Source: a delta proteobacterium MLS_D (lineage in GTDB: Bacteria; Desulfobacterota; Syntrophia; Syntrophales; UBA2210). From it: DNA of 64,000 bases. Location of the stretch: positions 1 through 64,000 of the forward strand of contig LQBH01000035.1 of assembly GCA_002030015.1 (NCBI GenBank). The letters run 5' to 3'. The notes under the pieces are model-generated. The model was not told the DNA's origin. It worked only from the letters and a program-made list of their open reading frames with translations, and made no database searches. Positions 745-55,780 of this stretch are shown here, in pieces. The translations under genes were made by a program, and so were the position numbers. Position 1 is the stretch's first letter; each line of letters opens with the position of its first letter.

Positions 745-1935
745 TCAGAAAGCTCCGTCGTCCCGAAATGCCTTCATGTCCTCATCGGAATAACCCAGAT
801 CCTTCAGTATCTCTTCATTATGTTCCCCGAGAAGCGGGGCGGCGGTCCTGACGCTTCCCGGTGTCCCGTGAAGTTTTATAGGCACTCCCTGGATTTTTAT
901 ATTCCCAAGTTTCGGGTGCTCTACCTCCACGATCATTTCACGGGCAGCGGTGTGGGGATGATTTACTACGTCATCAACATTCAAAATCGGGGCCCCGGGA
1001 ATCCCGGCTTCTTCAAGCAGGCTTTCCAGTTCTTTCACCGATTTTGTAGCAGCCCAGTCGTCCATGATGCTTTTTAATTCAGGGATATAATTATTCACCC
1101 GGTCGTTATTCGATGCAAAACGGGGGTCCTCTGCCAGTCCCGGCTGACCCATGACGTCACACAGCCGCGACCACAGCGCGTCCGTTCCAACGCCCAGGAA
1201 AAAGTATCCATCGCTACACGTATACATGTCAAACGGCGCGATGGCGGGATCAGCGTTTCCGACTCTTTCGGGAACTTTGCCGTCAATAGTATACGTCACG
1301 ATAGCATTTTCCAGCGTGGAAAAAATCGCATCCTGCATGGACACTTCGATTCGCTGGCCCTTTCCGGTTTTGCTCCGACTATGTAATGCCATCATTATTC
1401 CTAAAGCCATGTAGGTCCCTGTGAAAGTATCCGCGACAGACGGACCTACCTTGGTCGGAGGTGCATCGGGAAATCCCGTGATACTGACGATTCCTCCCAT
1501 TGATTGAGCAATAATATCGTACGCCGGTCTCGATGCCAGTGGGCCGTATGTGCCGAAGCCAGTTGCCTGGGCATAGACGAGACGAGGATATTTTTCCTTC
1601 AAAACGTCCCAGCCGAATCCCAGTCTCTCAAGCGTCCCGGGCCTGAAGTTTTCTACCAGCACATCCGCTGTTTCCAGTAATTTAGCGAATATTTCTTTCC
1701 CTTTCTCAGACCGCAGATTTAATTCCATGCCTTTTTTGTTGCGGTTCAGAAAAGCGTAGTAGCCGCTCTCGCCGTTTTTCAGCGGTGGAAAATACCGTGA
1801 CTGCTCTCCCCGTCCGGGAGGTTCGATTTTTATTACGTCCGCCCCGTGATCCGCCAGATGCATCGTGCAAAAGGGACCGTTATATACGTGTGTCATATCG
1901 ACCACTTTTATGCCGTCCAAAGCGCCTTTAGTCAT
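745..1935 (-). CDS. Family III (CaiB/BaiF) CoA-transferase
   Basis: Transfers CoA between acyl groups and free acids; in this operon it would activate the acid that the neighbouring ammonia-lyase uses. The protein is 396 residues, normal for the family. It starts with the typical LDGIKVVDMTHV strand and has the VENFRPG motif near residue 95. Asp169 in SVADTFTG falls exactly at the position of the catalytic aspartate of formyl-CoA transferase. The start at 1935 is chosen because a GGGAGG site lies just upstream; the frame stays open for 25 more codons but has no such site. It is the last gene of a three-gene minus-strand set after the carrier and the ammonia-lyase, with a 287-base gap before it that may hold a second promoter. 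The substrate is not readable from sequence; beta-alanine or 3-aminobutyrate is inferred from the neighbour. Confidence 0.88.
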   Translation of the reverse strand: MTKGALDGIKVVDMTHVYNGPFCTMHLADHGADVIKIEPPGRGEQSRYFPPLKNGESGYYAFLNRNKKGMELNLRSEKGKEIFAKLLETADVLVENFRPGTLERLGFGWDVLKEKYPRLVYAQATGFGTYGPLASRPAYDIIAQSMGGIVSITGFPDAPPTKVGPSVADTFTGTYMALGIMMALHSRSKTGKGQRIEVSMQDAIFSTLENAIVTYTIDGKVPERVGNADPAIAPFDMYTCSDGYFFLGVGTDALWSRLCDVMGQPGLAEDPRFASNNDRVNNYIPELKSIMDDWAATKSVKELESLLEEAGIPGAPILNVDDVVNHPHTAAREMIVEVEHPKLGNIKIQGVPIKLHGTPGSVRTAAPLLGEHNEEILKDLGYSDEDMKAFRDDGAF

Positions 1936-2222: not shown

Positions 2223-2636
2223 CTACAGCAGTTCTTCGTGAGAAATCTGCGCTCCTCGCTGGCACTCTTTAGGAACAACACAAACCCCGGTAGCCCTGGC
2301 AACCAGAACCGGTTCGCTCAATACGTCGCAGGCGGAAGGATATTCGGCATCCTTGACCGGCTGTGCCACCTTCCAGACCTCAAATTCCATTGTTCGAGAG
2401 GTGTTTCCCATCTTGGTAAACCAGCCCACGGCCTCGATAAAGTCACCCGCATATACCGGAGCCAGGAACTCTGCGTTTTCGTACGCCCTGAACAATCCTT
2501 CATCTCCGTCGCTCCAAATGAGCAACTCGGTCGCCACGTCACCCATCAAATCAAGCATATGGGAACCATTAACAAGACCGCCCGCGTAGTGCGCGTCGTG
2601 TTCACTCATTCTCAGTCTGATCATTGCTTTTTTCAT
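2223..2636 (-). CDS. Beta-aminoacyl-CoA ammonia-lyase (beta-alanyl-CoA / 3-aminobutyryl-CoA type)
   Basis: A 137-residue single hotdog-fold protein. It resembles the Clostridium propionicum beta-alanyl-CoA:ammonia lyase and the 3-aminobutyryl-CoA ammonia lyase (Kal) of lysine fermenters. Shared blocks as I recall them are DAHYxGxLVNG (residues 14-24), GDVxTEL (32-38), a D-G-D loop near 43-45, EF.APVY.GDF (56-66), GNTS (about 77-80), the RATG block in the C-terminal third, and the closing CQRG. Glu56 aligns with the glutamate reported as catalytic in the C. propionicum enzyme (from memory). The reaction removes NH3 to give an enoyl-CoA: acrylyl-CoA from beta-alanyl-CoA or crotonyl-CoA from 3-aminobutyryl-CoA. 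It sits between an amino-acid carrier and a CoA-transferase, which supports this reading. Which of the two substrates is used cannot be told from sequence. Confidence 0.85.
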
Positions 2637-2886: not shown

Positions 2887-4215
2887 CTAATTCGCCGGCT
2901 CCGCTTCATTGCGTTTTTTGTAATAGAAATGACCTATCAGGGCGCCGATAACCGCCAGCGTTATCCAGCCGAAACCCGCTCCTCCGAGGGGGAAGAGAGC
3001 TTTTACATGCTCCAGGGTCACGCCCCCACCCATCAGATTTGCGTAACCGATGAGACCGTCAAACAGTCCCCAGGCAAACGCACCGATTGTTCCTCCGGTC
3101 CGCGCGCCCCTCAGGTTAGGCGCCAGCAGAATAAAGAGAACCAGAACGATTGCGGGTGGATAAATAATATCCAGGATCGGTGCGGTTAACGTGATGATCT
3201 GCGTCAGACCGATCATGCTTACCAGGCAGCTGGCAGCCAGGGTCACGATGGCGCAGTTCCTGTAACCGATCTTGCCCTGACTGGCCTCCTCGAAATAGGA
3301 CGCCGTGCCTCCACCCAGGCCGACCGCCGTCGTCAGGGCCGCGAAAATGAGGGCTATGTTGAAAATGGTGCCGCCAACCTGGCCCCAGGAATTGATGATG
3401 ACGGTCGCGTAAAGACGAGCGTAGGAAACATCTTTGAACATATCCCCCGTATTCGCCCCCACGATCATCTGAAAGAAATGGCTCGTGCCCAGAATGATAA
3501 AACCGATTATTCCGGCCATGGCCAGGTATTTGCTCACCTTGCCTGCCGCGACCTTTTTACCCTGCGTCAGTGTCGCGATGACGATGCCGGCAAACATGAG
3601 CGCCGCCGGCAGGTCCATGGTCTGATAACCGTTTATGAATCCGTAATAAAAAGGACTTTCGGTGAAAGCAGGCTCCACCCAGCTCGACAGGGGCTGGAGC
3701 ATACTTTTAACAACCACGGCGATAACGGTTAAAATCAGGACGGGAAGCAAATATTTCGAAATTTTATCGATGATCTCTTCCTTCTTGAAGAGGAACCAGT
3801 AAGCGACCAGGTAATAAACGATAGTAAATATGGCCATGGGAATAAAAGGAGAATGTTCCACGCCCAGCAGCTGACAGATAGCGTCCCATGAGGCCGCGCT
3901 CATTCTTGGAATAACAAACAATGGTCCGAGAACCAGGACTGTCAGGCCGCCGAAAATCTGCGCGAACCGTGGACCGACTGAATAGGCGAGCTTGAACAGG
4001 GACCCTTCCCTGGCCACCGCCAGGTAGCCCATAGCCGGGAAAAGAATACCCGAGATAAATACCCCGAGATAGGCGAGCAGCACGGTGTTCCCGCTCTGCT
4101 GACCCCACGTTACCGGCCACAACATGCATGATGCACCGAAATGCATCGCGAAAACCGACCCACCGATGGCCAGTAATGCCAATGGTGTAATGCCACTAGA
4201 GGAATTGTTGTTCAT
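2887..4215 (-). CDS. BrnQ-like (LIVCS family) Na+/amino-acid carrier
   Basis: A 442-residue membrane protein with about 12 hydrophobic segments. The first, with FAMHFGASCMLWPVTWGQQSG-type sequence (about residues 17-37), matches the start of branched-chain amino-acid carriers of the LIVCS family, which import leucine, isoleucine or valine with Na+ or H+. The tail is short, basic and cytoplasmic (YYKKRNE). The start at 4215 follows a GGGAGA site; upstream in-frame sequence is low-complexity basic and unlikely to be coding. It is the first gene after the sigma54-type promoter at 4475-4490, leaving a leader of roughly 250 bases. Since the next two genes handle a beta-amino acid, it may import beta-alanine or 3-aminobutyrate instead of a branched-chain amino acid; that is inference. 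Confidence 0.78.
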   Translation of the reverse strand: MNNNSSSGITPLALLAIGGSVFAMHFGASCMLWPVTWGQQSGNTVLLAYLGVFISGILFPAMGYLAVAREGSLFKLAYSVGPRFAQIFGGLTVLVLGPLFVIPRMSAASWDAICQLLGVEHSPFIPMAIFTIVYYLVAYWFLFKKEEIIDKISKYLLPVLILTVIAVVVKSMLQPLSSWVEPAFTESPFYYGFINGYQTMDLPAALMFAGIVIATLTQGKKVAAGKVSKYLAMAGIIGFIILGTSHFFQMIVGANTGDMFKDVSYARLYATVIINSWGQVGGTIFNIALIFAALTTAVGLGGGTASYFEEASQGKIGYRNCAIVTLAASCLVSMIGLTQIITLTAPILDIIYPPAIVLVLFILLAPNLRGARTGGTIGAFAWGLFDGLIGYANLMGGGVTLEHVKALFPLGGAGFGWITLAVIGALIGHFYYKKRNEAEPAN

Positions 4216-4474
4216 CGTTCTCCCTTTCCTTTCGTCATGATTTTGAACAGCCGAATCGCGAACCAGGCGTCGGGAAAAGCCGTGGTGTCGAGTCCCTCCC
4301 GTTTCCTGCCGCGAAACGTTTCCTGCCGATACCTGCTCCCTTCTGTGTTGACGCCGTAAAAACAGCCTTGAACCGGATACGCCGTCGACCGTATCCTGTC
4401 CGGCCACCCGCGCACTGCGCGTCACCCGGTTCCTGCTTGTTCAAAAACACCTGCAGTTTGCTGACTGGAGAAAT

Positions 4475-4490
4475 GGCAAGATGCATGCCA
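4475..4490 (-). promoter_or_regulatory. Sigma54 (-24/-12) promoter for the catabolic operon
   Basis: Read on the minus strand the sequence is TGGCATGCATCTTGCC. Against the consensus TGGCACGNNNNTTGCW it has GG at -24, GC at -12 and the correct spacing, with a single base off in each box. It faces the carrier gene at 4215 and sits next to a sigma54-activator gene, which is the expected arrangement. Confidence 0.8.
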
Positions 4491-4622
4491 TAGCGAAAAA
4501 ATGAAAATAATCAATGCATTAGGGGTTATTTCGGGATCAACGGATCATGTGCCGTATTGAAACAGTCCTTGCGCTTTTTTTACCTAACTGTTATGCGGAG
4601 CAAGGAAAACATAAGAACGTTT

Positions 4623-4646
4623 CACAATGAAACATGTTTCATTGTG
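4623..4646. promoter_or_regulatory. 24-bp perfect palindrome, probable activator (UAS) site
   Basis: The half-site CACAATGAAACA is followed directly by its exact reverse complement. It lies about 140 bp upstream of the -24/-12 promoter, the usual distance for a sigma54 enhancer site, and about 250 bp before the divergent activator gene. The TGAAACA half-site also occurs alone at 4558-4564. I read it as the binding site of the activator encoded at 4893-6782. Confidence 0.7.
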
Positions 4647-4892
4647 GTTCGGAAAAAATGGCGGCCGCTTCGACGGCTCTGCCGTCTACAGCTTCAATCT
4701 GTCAGAAAATCCTGAGCATTTGGTTGTTGTAGCCGGCAACAGGACCCGGTGCCGTCGGATCCCCAGAGAGGCGGTTTCCACCGCTGAAGGTTCCGGACGC
4801 TCCGCGTGACCGGGAATTGAACAGTGGCCGCTTTGCAGAGTTCAGGGCGCCTGGCGCGGCATACGCGGCAGGTTGTGATTCAGGTTGATTGA

Positions 4893-6782
4893 ATGACTCG
4901 TAGTAAGCACAGTATTGAAAAAGCCTCACGAACACCCGAGAACCATTACGACGATATCACGAAGAACCCTGATAATGAATCCACTGAACGGGTTGAGCTG
5001 TCGTATCTCGTTGAGGGACTACGGGACATTTTACGGTTAAATGTCTTTTTTTCAGGCACTGTTTTTGTATGCGATGAAAAGGGCGGAATTGTTTTTACCG
5101 AAGACGGGCAGAAACTGTTACGCGCGGTTCCCGGTCATCAATGCTGGCTGGAACAGAGCATGGGAACCAACGCGATAGGCCGGGCGATACGCGAACTCCA
5201 AACAACGGTTATCACAGGTAAAAAACATCAAAAATCTGAACTGCGCGACGCTGTTACCATTGGTGTTCCCGTCCTCATCGACAACCGCCTTATCGGATGC
5301 GTCGGGTTTCTTGATTCCGTCGGAAACAGGGTCGACATCGGGCTTGTGGAGAAATTCATCGAAAGCGCCGTGTTCGCCACAAAAAAAATAATAGAAGCCA
5401 GAAAAAAGGTGGATGAAGTTTTTCTCCTCAAAAATTTTCTGAATGATTACGATGAAAATAGTGCCGCGATGGTCTGGAACGCAAACGGAACAATCTGCCA
5501 GATTAATAAACTGGCTGAAATCATGCTGGGAATGCCGCGCGAAGAACTGATTGGTTCTCACATCGACGATTATCTCGATGATCACTGCACCCGACTCATG
5601 GTTGAAACTGCATTGAGGAACGTAACCCTTCACACATCCCGTGGCGACACAATCGTTAATGCGTTCATTCGCCCGCAGTTATTCAACGCCCGATTGCTCG
5701 GCTGGAGTTTTTCATTTGAACCGGCGGGGTCAAAGGACGTGTCGGCCCTCACTTCACCCTGCCACTATGAATTCAGCAATATTATCGGCAAAAATAAAGA
5801 TTTGATCCGCCTGTTGAAAACGGCGCGGAGGATTGCGGACAGTCCGTCCAATATACTTGTCAGTGGTGAAAGCGGAACAGGCAAGGAACTCGTTGTCCAG
5901 GCGATTCACCGGGCCGGTTCACGGTGCCGGGGGCCCTTCGTGCCGATAAATTGCTCGGCCATACCAAAGGAATTGATGGAAACGGAATTATTCGGATACG
6001 CCGAGGGAGCTTTTACCGGCGCGAAAAAAGGGGGAGTGGCGGGAAAGTTTGTTCAGGCGAACGGCGGAACGCTGTTTCTGGATGAAATCGGCGATATGCC
6101 CTATGATCTACAGCCGAAACTGTTGCGCGCCATTCAGGAAAGGCAGGTGATACCGATAGGCGGAAATAAGTCCATTCCGATTGATATTCGTCTTATCTGT
6201 GCCTCCAATCAGGATCTGGAACAGTTAGTCGCGGAAAACCGGTTTCGCGCCGATCTGTATTACAGGCTCAATGTTATCACGTTGCAGGTGCCGGCTCTTC
6301 GCGAAAGAAAGGATGATATTCCGATTCTTGCCGACTATTTCATTGATCGTTACAGCCGGCGCTTGAACAAACCAGGCCTGAAAGCAGACCAGCAGTTCAT
6401 CGATTATCTGGCCGATTATTCCTGGCCGGGCAATGTCCGTGAACTCGAAAACATTATCGAACGAGCGGTCAATCTTGCCAACGAGACGCTCACCCCCGAA
6501 TTGCTTCCATCCGAGATCAGGAATTTTCATCAGGAAAAGGACCAATCGGGGCCGGATCATGATGACAGCGACGCCCGAAACGATGTTGTCCCGATGGCAG
6601 TGATGGAAAAGCAGTTGATTCAAAAAGCGTTGATCCGCTTCGAAGGAAATATATCCCAGGCTTCGTCGGCTCTCGGTATCGGCCGTACCACGTTGTACCG
6701 TAAAATCAAGAAGTTCGGCCTGACCGGGTATGTCAGGAACGCGGATGAACATAGTGACGACATAAAGAACGATACATATTAG
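4893..6782 (+). CDS. Sigma54-dependent transcriptional activator, AcoR-like (GAF-PAS-AAA-Fis)
   Basis: A 629-residue enhancer-binding protein. An N-terminal GAF-type sensor region (about 45-165) carries the WLEQSMGTNAIG stretch typical of AcoR-like regulators. A PAS-like region follows (about 185-275), then the AAA+ domain (about 293-530) with Walker A GESGTGK (325-331), the sigma54-contacting GAFTGA loop (372-377) and Walker B TLFLDE (393-398). A Fis-type helix-turn-helix with ALGIGRTTLYRKIKK lies at 593-607. There is no receiver domain, so it should sense a small molecule directly and not be phosphorylated. It diverges from the catabolic operon, and the palindrome and -24/-12 promoter between them are its natural targets. 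A second recognisable sigma54 promoter for the gene itself was not seen. Confidence 0.93.
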   Translation: MTRSKHSIEKASRTPENHYDDITKNPDNESTERVELSYLVEGLRDILRLNVFFSGTVFVCDEKGGIVFTEDGQKLLRAVPGHQCWLEQSMGTNAIGRAIRELQTTVITGKKHQKSELRDAVTIGVPVLIDNRLIGCVGFLDSVGNRVDIGLVEKFIESAVFATKKIIEARKKVDEVFLLKNFLNDYDENSAAMVWNANGTICQINKLAEIMLGMPREELIGSHIDDYLDDHCTRLMVETALRNVTLHTSRGDTIVNAFIRPQLFNARLLGWSFSFEPAGSKDVSALTSPCHYEFSNIIGKNKDLIRLLKTARRIADSPSNILVSGESGTGKELVVQAIHRAGSRCRGPFVPINCSAIPKELMETELFGYAEGAFTGAKKGGVAGKFVQANGGTLFLDEIGDMPYDLQPKLLRAIQERQVIPIGGNKSIPIDIRLICASNQDLEQLVAENRFRADLYYRLNVITLQVPALRERKDDIPILADYFIDRYSRRLNKPGLKADQQFIDYLADYSWPGNVRELENIIERAVNLANETLTPELLPSEIRNFHQEKDQSGPDHDDSDARNDVVPMAVMEKQLIQKALIRFEGNISQASSALGIGRTTLYRKIKKFGLTGYVRNADEHSDDIKNDTY

Positions 6783-54580: not shown

Positions 54581-55780
54581 ATGGTAAACAGCGTCAAGGA
54601 AGGAATAGAAGATATAAAACAGGGAAAGATGGTTATCCTTGTGGACGACGAAGATCGTGAAAACGAAGGCGACCTGTGCATGGCGGCCGAACACGTGACG
54701 CCGGACGCAATCAATTTCATGGCGAAATACGGGCGCGGCTTGATCTGTCTCTCGCTCGCGGAGGAAATCGCCGACCGGCTGAATCTCACTCCCATGGTCA
54801 GCAACAACAAGGCCCGCTTTGAAACGGCTTTCACCGTATCGGTTGAGGCCCGCGAAAATGTCACGACGGGCATATCGGCCCGCGACCGGGCCGTGACCAT
54901 CCAGACGGCCATTGCCGACGGCGCCGGGCCTAACGATCTGGTCAGCCCGGGGCACGTGTTTCCCATTCGGGCCCGCCGCGGCGGCGTGCTCGTCCGGACC
55001 GGGCAGACGGAAGGATCCGTCGACCTCGCCCGCATGGCGAAGCTCAAGCCGGCGGGAGTTATATGCGAAATCATGAAAGATGACGGGACCATGGCCCGCA
55101 TGCCGGACCTGGAAATTTTCGCGGAGGAGCACGGTCTCAAGATTATCACCGTGGCCGACATTATCAATTTCAGGATGCAGCATGAACGCCTGATCAGGCG
55201 CGCCGCCGAGGCGAATCTTCCGACAGTGTACGGAGGAGATTTCAAAATCATCGTCTACGAAAACGACGTTGATGATATGAAACACATCGCCCTCGTCAAG
55301 GGCGAAATCGAACCGGATGAAGCGGTTCTCGTGCGGGTTCATTCGGAGTGTATAACAGGTGACCTTTTCGGTTCGCTCCGGTGCGATTGCGGCGACCAGC
55401 TTCACCGCGCCATGGAAATGATCGACCAGGAGGGTAAGGGCGTCATCGTGTACATGCACCAGGAAGGCCGGGGAATCGGACTGACCAATAAGATCCGGGC
55501 CTATAGTCTTCAGGAACAGGGCCTGGACACGGTCGACGCGAACCGCCATCTCGGCTTCAAGGACGACCTGCGAGATTATGGCATCGGCGCGCAGATTCTG
55601 GTCGACCTGGGCGTGCGAAAGATGCGCATACTCACCAACAATCCGAAGAAAATCATAGGGCTCGAAGGCTACGACGTTGAGGTGGTGGAACGTGTTCCCA
55701 TCATTATCACGCCGAATGAAAATAACAGACGCTACCTGGAAACAAAGAAAACGAGAATGGGACACTTGCTTGAATCATGA
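54581..55780 (+). CDS. ribBA: Bifunctional 3,4-dihydroxy-2-butanone-4-phosphate synthase / GTP cyclohydrolase II
   Basis: A 399-residue fusion. Residues 1-200 are the RibB part with [12 protein letters not shown] (22-33) and the YGRGLICL and SARDRAVTI blocks, which make the four-carbon unit from ribulose-5-phosphate. Residues 205-399 are RibA with the zinc-binding [18 protein letters not shown] (about 253-270) and the [16 protein letters not shown] block, which opens GTP. Both halves look complete. It supplies both substrates of the pathway up to the missing RibD step. Confidence 0.96.

Follow-up and report, generated by a model that had tools for sequence, protein, structure and literature searches.

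In the one-component sigma-54 activator systems of Clostridiales (PMC6615313) and Desulfovibrio (PMC4641369), the upstream activating sequence (UAS) is an inverted repeat that precedes a -24/-12 promoter by 100-250 bp and lies beside the activator gene, the activator carries a Fis-type HTH motif, and the regulon often consists of a single operon. In Clostridiales, most UASs are found within this distance and usually next to the activator gene, 65% of the activators have one target operon, which is the commonest case, and a common UAS motif of the type TGT-N10-12-ACA was described for 15 groups (PMC6615313). The locus analyzed here resembles these systems in all of these features except the motif, TGAAACATGTTTCA, which is fully symmetric over 24 bp and not of the TGT-N10-12-ACA type. 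In a literature search, it was not found as a sigma-54 activator site. The promoters nifH and Pu are IHF-assisted sigma-54 promoters, and as in these, an IHF consensus is present between the candidate UAS and the -24/-12 element, its role here being suggested by consensus and conservation.

The proteins encoded at the locus also have described counterparts. The activator shows a domain order similar to that of AcoR/DhaR-type one-component activators and aligns to the DhaR model over residues 84-611, but differs from DhaR in its score (281 bits compared to an equivalog cut-off of 551) and in its target genes. The second protein of the operon exceeds the NCBIfam cut-off for the KAL family; its closest described counterparts are 3-aminobutyryl-CoA ammonia lyase of lysine fermentation and beta-alanyl-CoA ammonia lyase. 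Unlike in these known systems, its gene neighbors here encode a BrnQ-type transporter and a CaiB-type CoA-transferase.

Genetic Organization of the Locus

The window, i.e., the entire 64-kb stretch of DNA that was analyzed, contains the following divergently oriented genes:

745-1935, minus strand: class III (CaiB/BaiF) CoA-transferase (PF02515, 3.7e-138)
2223-2636, minus strand: 3-aminobutyryl-CoA ammonia-lyase-like protein, KAL family, hotdog fold (NF052388, 174.6 bits, over the cut-off of 160)
2887-4215, minus strand: BrnQ/LIVCS-family transporter, first gene of the proposed target operon, leader of about 250 nt (PF05525, 2.2e-77)
4893-6782, plus strand: sigma-54 activator (enhancer-binding protein) with N-terminal sensory region, PAS, AAA+ and Fis-type HTH_8 (PF00158, 1.4e-66; PF25601; PF02954, 1e-14; PF00989, 1.3e-5)

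The three minus-strand genes, regarded as one operon, and the activator gene are separated by an intergenic region of 677 bp, which harbors the palindrome. With TIGR00796, the transporter reached 225.1 bits, which is under the cut-off of 243.4. Judging from its gene content, the operon may serve for the uptake of an amino-acid-like substrate, followed by CoA transfer and elimination of ammonia to an enoyl-CoA.

In the activator, Pfam recognized PAS, sigma-54 interaction/AAA+, lid and Fis-type HTH domains, so that PF00158 and the HTH domain PF02954 expected of a cognate activator are both present in 4893-6782. For the N-terminal part Pfam gave no significant match; judged from the alignment to the DhaR model, this region is probably GAF-like. 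The genome also encodes RpoN (PF04552, 212 bits), about 18 other sigma-54 activators and five HU/IHF-family proteins. One of the latter exceeds one of two curated IHF-alpha cut-offs, and another has its best match with IHF-beta, at a score below the cut-off.

Sequence and Expected Frequency of the Palindrome

The intergenic region contains the following elements:

4475-4490, minus strand: sigma-54 -24/-12 element TGGCATGCATCTTGCC, predicted promoter of the transporter operon, 11 of 12 consensus positions; relatives differ by one change (TGGCATGTATCTTGCC)
4509-4521, plus strand: perfect IHF consensus WATCAANNNNTTR (AATCAATGCATTA), located between the candidate UAS and the promoter; relatives retain the consensus positions
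4558-4564, plus strand: TGAAACA half-site, possible weaker second contact, in the invariant run TATTGAAACAGT (4555-4566)
4623-4646, no strand assigned: palindrome CACAATGAAACATGTTTCATTGTG, putative UAS for the divergently encoded sigma-54 activator; two congeners differ from it at one of the 24 positions
4626-4648, no strand assigned: invariant 23-bp run AATGAAACATGTTTCATTGTGGT over the palindrome core, identical in three genomes
4689-4716, no strand assigned: 28-bp block CAGCTTCAATCTGTCAGAAAATCCTGAG, situated between the palindrome and the gene of the activator, invariant in three genomes and present once in the genome

The original prediction had described a perfect 24-bp palindrome at 4623-4646, and the sequence agrees with this exactly. 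It is an even palindrome composed of two 12-bp arms with neither spacer nor mismatch, and thus a dyad-symmetric site in the intergenic region, as expected for the UAS of a sigma-54 activator. Within the window it is the longest perfect even palindrome, the next longest ones having 16 bp. By analytical calculation, palindromes of at least 24 bp are expected 0.0043 times in 64 kb, 0.17 times in the entire genome of 2.51 Mb and 4.2e-5 times in the intergenic region. In simulations with first-order Markov sequences, 24 bp were attained in 2 of 300 sequences of 64 kb, and the longest palindrome among 20,000 simulated intergenic regions was 22 bp. The assertion that such a palindrome is very unlikely by chance therefore holds for the intergenic region and only weakly for the genome: its length alone is notable locally and not genome-wide. 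Since 0.17 palindromes are expected genome-wide, the argument for a function rests on location and conservation, not on length alone.

Position Relative to the Promoter and the IHF Site

The edge of the palindrome is 133 bp from the -24 element and its center is located about 146 bp upstream of the -24 GG, in agreement with the predicted distance of about 140 bp to the -24/-12 promoter. This spacing falls inside the UAS range of 100-250 bp (PMC6615313). The predicted recurrence of a TGAAACA half-site at 4558 was likewise found. It is a half-site only, as a matching right half is not present, and its distance to the left half-site of the palindrome is 70 bp, which corresponds to a non-integral number of helical turns (6.67 at 10.5 bp per turn).

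The IHF consensus at 4509-4521 is positioned between the palindrome and the -24/-12 element, as in IHF-assisted sigma-54 promoters. It is the single match in the window, where 1.27 matches were expected, and its changes in the relatives are confined to unspecified N positions.

Conservation in Related Genomes

The comparison covered 155 genomes of the order. Three of them were found to encode an activator orthologue, judged by its N-terminal half, namely the home genome and two genomes of the same genus, termed G005 and G006. The activator of G005 is 82% identical to the protein encoded in the window, with 34 of 38 residues identical in the covered HTH region. The intergenic DNA of these relatives is about 76% identical to that of the window. 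G005 and G006 are 95% identical to each other in this region and therefore count as one independent comparison, so that the three genomes represent two lineages with shared synteny.

The scan of relatives that had been proposed along with the palindrome showed its conservation in both congeners with an activator orthologue. In these genomes 23 of the 24 bases are kept, the single difference being an outer change from CAC to CAT, while about 24% of the intergenic bases have changed. The 16-bp core ATGAAACATGTTTCAT was found as an exact match in 3/3 genomes with an activator orthologue, always at the same locus, and in 0/152 of the others. Two further genomes of the genus, G007 and G008, have neither the activator nor the palindrome site, and a close relative of the transporter is likewise missing from them. 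Due to the shared synteny and the presence of only two lineages, the joint occurrence of site and activator cannot be regarded as independent of descent, and selection on the dyad would not be separable from general conservation with full rigour. That the palindrome arose by chance and has no function appears extremely improbable: an expectation of 0.17 perfect palindromes of 24 bp for the genome as a whole would allow it, but only 4e-5 are expected in the intergenic region, and the dyad was retained while the surrounding sequence diverged.

The outer base change also bears on a possible function at the RNA level. The plus-strand RNA of the palindrome folds at -13.3 kcal/mol (z-score -2.8 compared to shuffled sequences), and the change in the relatives would leave a G-U pair on this strand, both of which would suit a hairpin acting as terminator or leader structure. 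However, any perfect palindrome folds likewise, a T-run is absent downstream, and the palindrome was neither flagged by a terminator scan nor matched by an Rfam family at the gathering threshold. Moreover, the operon's predicted promoter lies downstream of it. On these grounds, an RNA hairpin is a most improbable explanation.

Invariant runs were scored across 659 aligned intergenic columns of the three genomes. The seven longest ones are located at 4689-4716, 4626-4648, 4301-4314, 4470-4482, 4237-4249, 4555-4566 and 4504-4515. Four of these correspond to the palindrome, the half-site, the IHF site and the -24/-12 element, and the remaining ones to the 28-bp block, a stretch in the leader (4301-4314) and a segment close to the start of the transporter (4237-4249). 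A direct repeat, CGTTTCCTGCCG, is also present in the 250-nt leader predicted for this operon; its two copies, at 4300-4328, are 17 bp apart, and the first one overlaps the conserved 14-bp run.

The 28-bp block, which contains TCAG-N6-CTGA, is the longest invariant run of the intergenic region and exceeds that of the palindrome, which indicates that conservation is not peculiar to the palindrome. The block may belong to the promoter or operator of the activator gene itself. Its location on the activator side, together with the position of the palindrome between both divergent genes and about 247 bp before the activator start, could indicate that the palindrome serves mainly for autoregulation, by repression or activation of a plus-strand promoter, rather than for control of the transporter operon. 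We consider this quite improbable, because the scans revealed no good sigma-54 or sigma-70 element directed at the activator gene, and the spacing, the IHF site and the half-site are all on the transporter side.

Search for Further Sites and Distant Relatives

It had also been suggested that the palindrome could be useful for finding the whole regulon, which the search did not support. The 12-mer half AATGAAACATGT is confined to the palindrome within the 2.5-Mb home genome. Allowing up to three mismatches, the 16-mer matched 16 places in 2.5 Mb, compared to about 10 expected by a uniform-base estimate, and is thus matched about as often as by chance. Apart from the palindrome itself, nearly all of these places are inside long open frames, and in none of them was a good -24/-12 element seen at the distance typical of an enhancer. 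Further copies in front of other sigma-54 promoters of the genome, as a multi-operon regulon would have, were not found. The sole copy of TGAAACANTGTTTCA, at C57:40740, was rejected as it is located inside the 3' end of a peptide deformylase-like frame (named by eye). Since no second credible site is present in the genome, the activator is probably a local one with one target operon.

In other families of the order, homologous transporter/CoA-transferase gene pairs adjoin an enoyl-CoA hydratase gene (named by eye). Two genomes, G038 and G039, encode distant activator homologues (about 40% identity) near another KAL gene; these loci have neither a matching site nor a good -24/-12 element and were dismissed. 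In G039, the KAL gene is accompanied by genes for an AMP-dependent ligase and an acyl-CoA dehydrogenase as well as by an electron-transfer flavoprotein frame. These gene contexts, those of the other families and of G038/G039, fit the proposed chemistry of the operon. Among 79 more distant activator loci scanned for the 18-bp core, only chance-level matches were obtained, and a search of plasmid records at E 1e-90 did not reveal a close relative of the activator.

Two observations were made at the G038 and G039 loci themselves. In G039 (L102, 1136-7863), the genes for the AMP-dependent ligase, the KAL-family ammonia lyase, the acyl-CoA dehydrogenase and the ETF-alpha frame are followed by the sigma-54 activator gene, whose product is about 40% identical to that of the window and which lacks a matching palindrome. 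In G038, an inverted repeat of the TGT-N11-ACA type, TGTTCCATGATGGTACA, was noticed upstream of the ligase/KAL gene run (L103, 2160-2185) and is a candidate UAS of the related activator.

The wider comparison is relevant to the question of which protein binds the palindrome. It could be the operator of a different factor, for example a TetR/GntR-type repressor or another sigma-54 activator, acting on the transporter operon, the activator gene or both. Perfect 24-bp dyads suit TetR-type dimers as well, other sigma-54 activators are encoded in the genome, and the related transporter/CoA-transferase loci with an enoyl-CoA hydratase gene in other families lack this activator, one of them having a TetR-like frame. 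On the other hand, the divergent sigma-54 activator is the only transcription factor seen beside the palindrome, the -24/-12 promoter requires a sigma-54 activator, and the site is single in the genome and limited to genomes with the activator. A different factor is therefore an unlikely candidate.

Proposed Function and Regulatory Mechanism

Taken from position and comparative sequence data, the palindrome is very probably the UAS, or enhancer, of the one-component sigma-54 activator whose divergent gene is located at 4893-6782. The original prediction had put it forward as the operator of the neighboring activator, and the context is consistent with this putative role: its position, the adjacent activator with a Fis-type HTH motif, its conservation together with the activator orthologue, and the restriction of the 16-bp core, within the order, to the genomes with this activator. 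Points against this assignment are, besides the shared descent of the genomes compared and the longer 28-bp block, the half-site being 6.67 turns away and the presence of about 18 further sigma-54 activators, any of which might in principle recognize the palindrome.

According to our model, a dimer of the Fis-type HTH motif would bind the symmetric core (about AATGAAACATGTTTCATT), and the half-site at 4558 would provide an auxiliary contact. The outer CAC/GTG may be dispensable, as the full 24 bp exceed the usual site of a Fis-type dimer and one outer base differs in the relatives. The N-terminal GAF/PAS-type region would sense a ligand, probably either the amino-acid-like compound that is imported or its CoA ester, whereupon the AAA+ oligomer would assemble. 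IHF bound at 4509-4521 would bend the DNA and bring the activator to the sigma-54 RNA polymerase at 4475-4490. ATP hydrolysis would then open the promoter and switch on the minus-strand operon for the BrnQ-type transporter, the beta-aminoacyl-CoA ammonia-lyase-like protein and the class III CoA-transferase. Activator binding, looping, IHF action and the ligand are all deduced from the DNA sequence.

This regulatory architecture is a textbook one, ordinary in kind and well preserved, and opens no wide regulon. The palindrome represents a precise predicted operator for an activator that is uncharacterised and belongs to an uncultured lineage; it also connects this activator with an operon probably handling a beta-amino acid or similar substrate. 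As a tentative extension, which we regard as somewhat doubtful, an undescribed activator/UAS pair would control, together with IHF, both import and CoA-dependent deamination of a beta-amino acid in this uncultured bacterium, with the 28-bp element adding a further layer of control.

Elsewhere in the window, a match to the Rfam family V_AS9, a Vibrio antisense RNA, was obtained barely above the threshold at 54675-54774 on the minus strand. It is antisense to a ribB/ribA-like coding frame at 54581-55780 (named by eye) and is probably explained by conserved coding sequence and not by an RNA gene.
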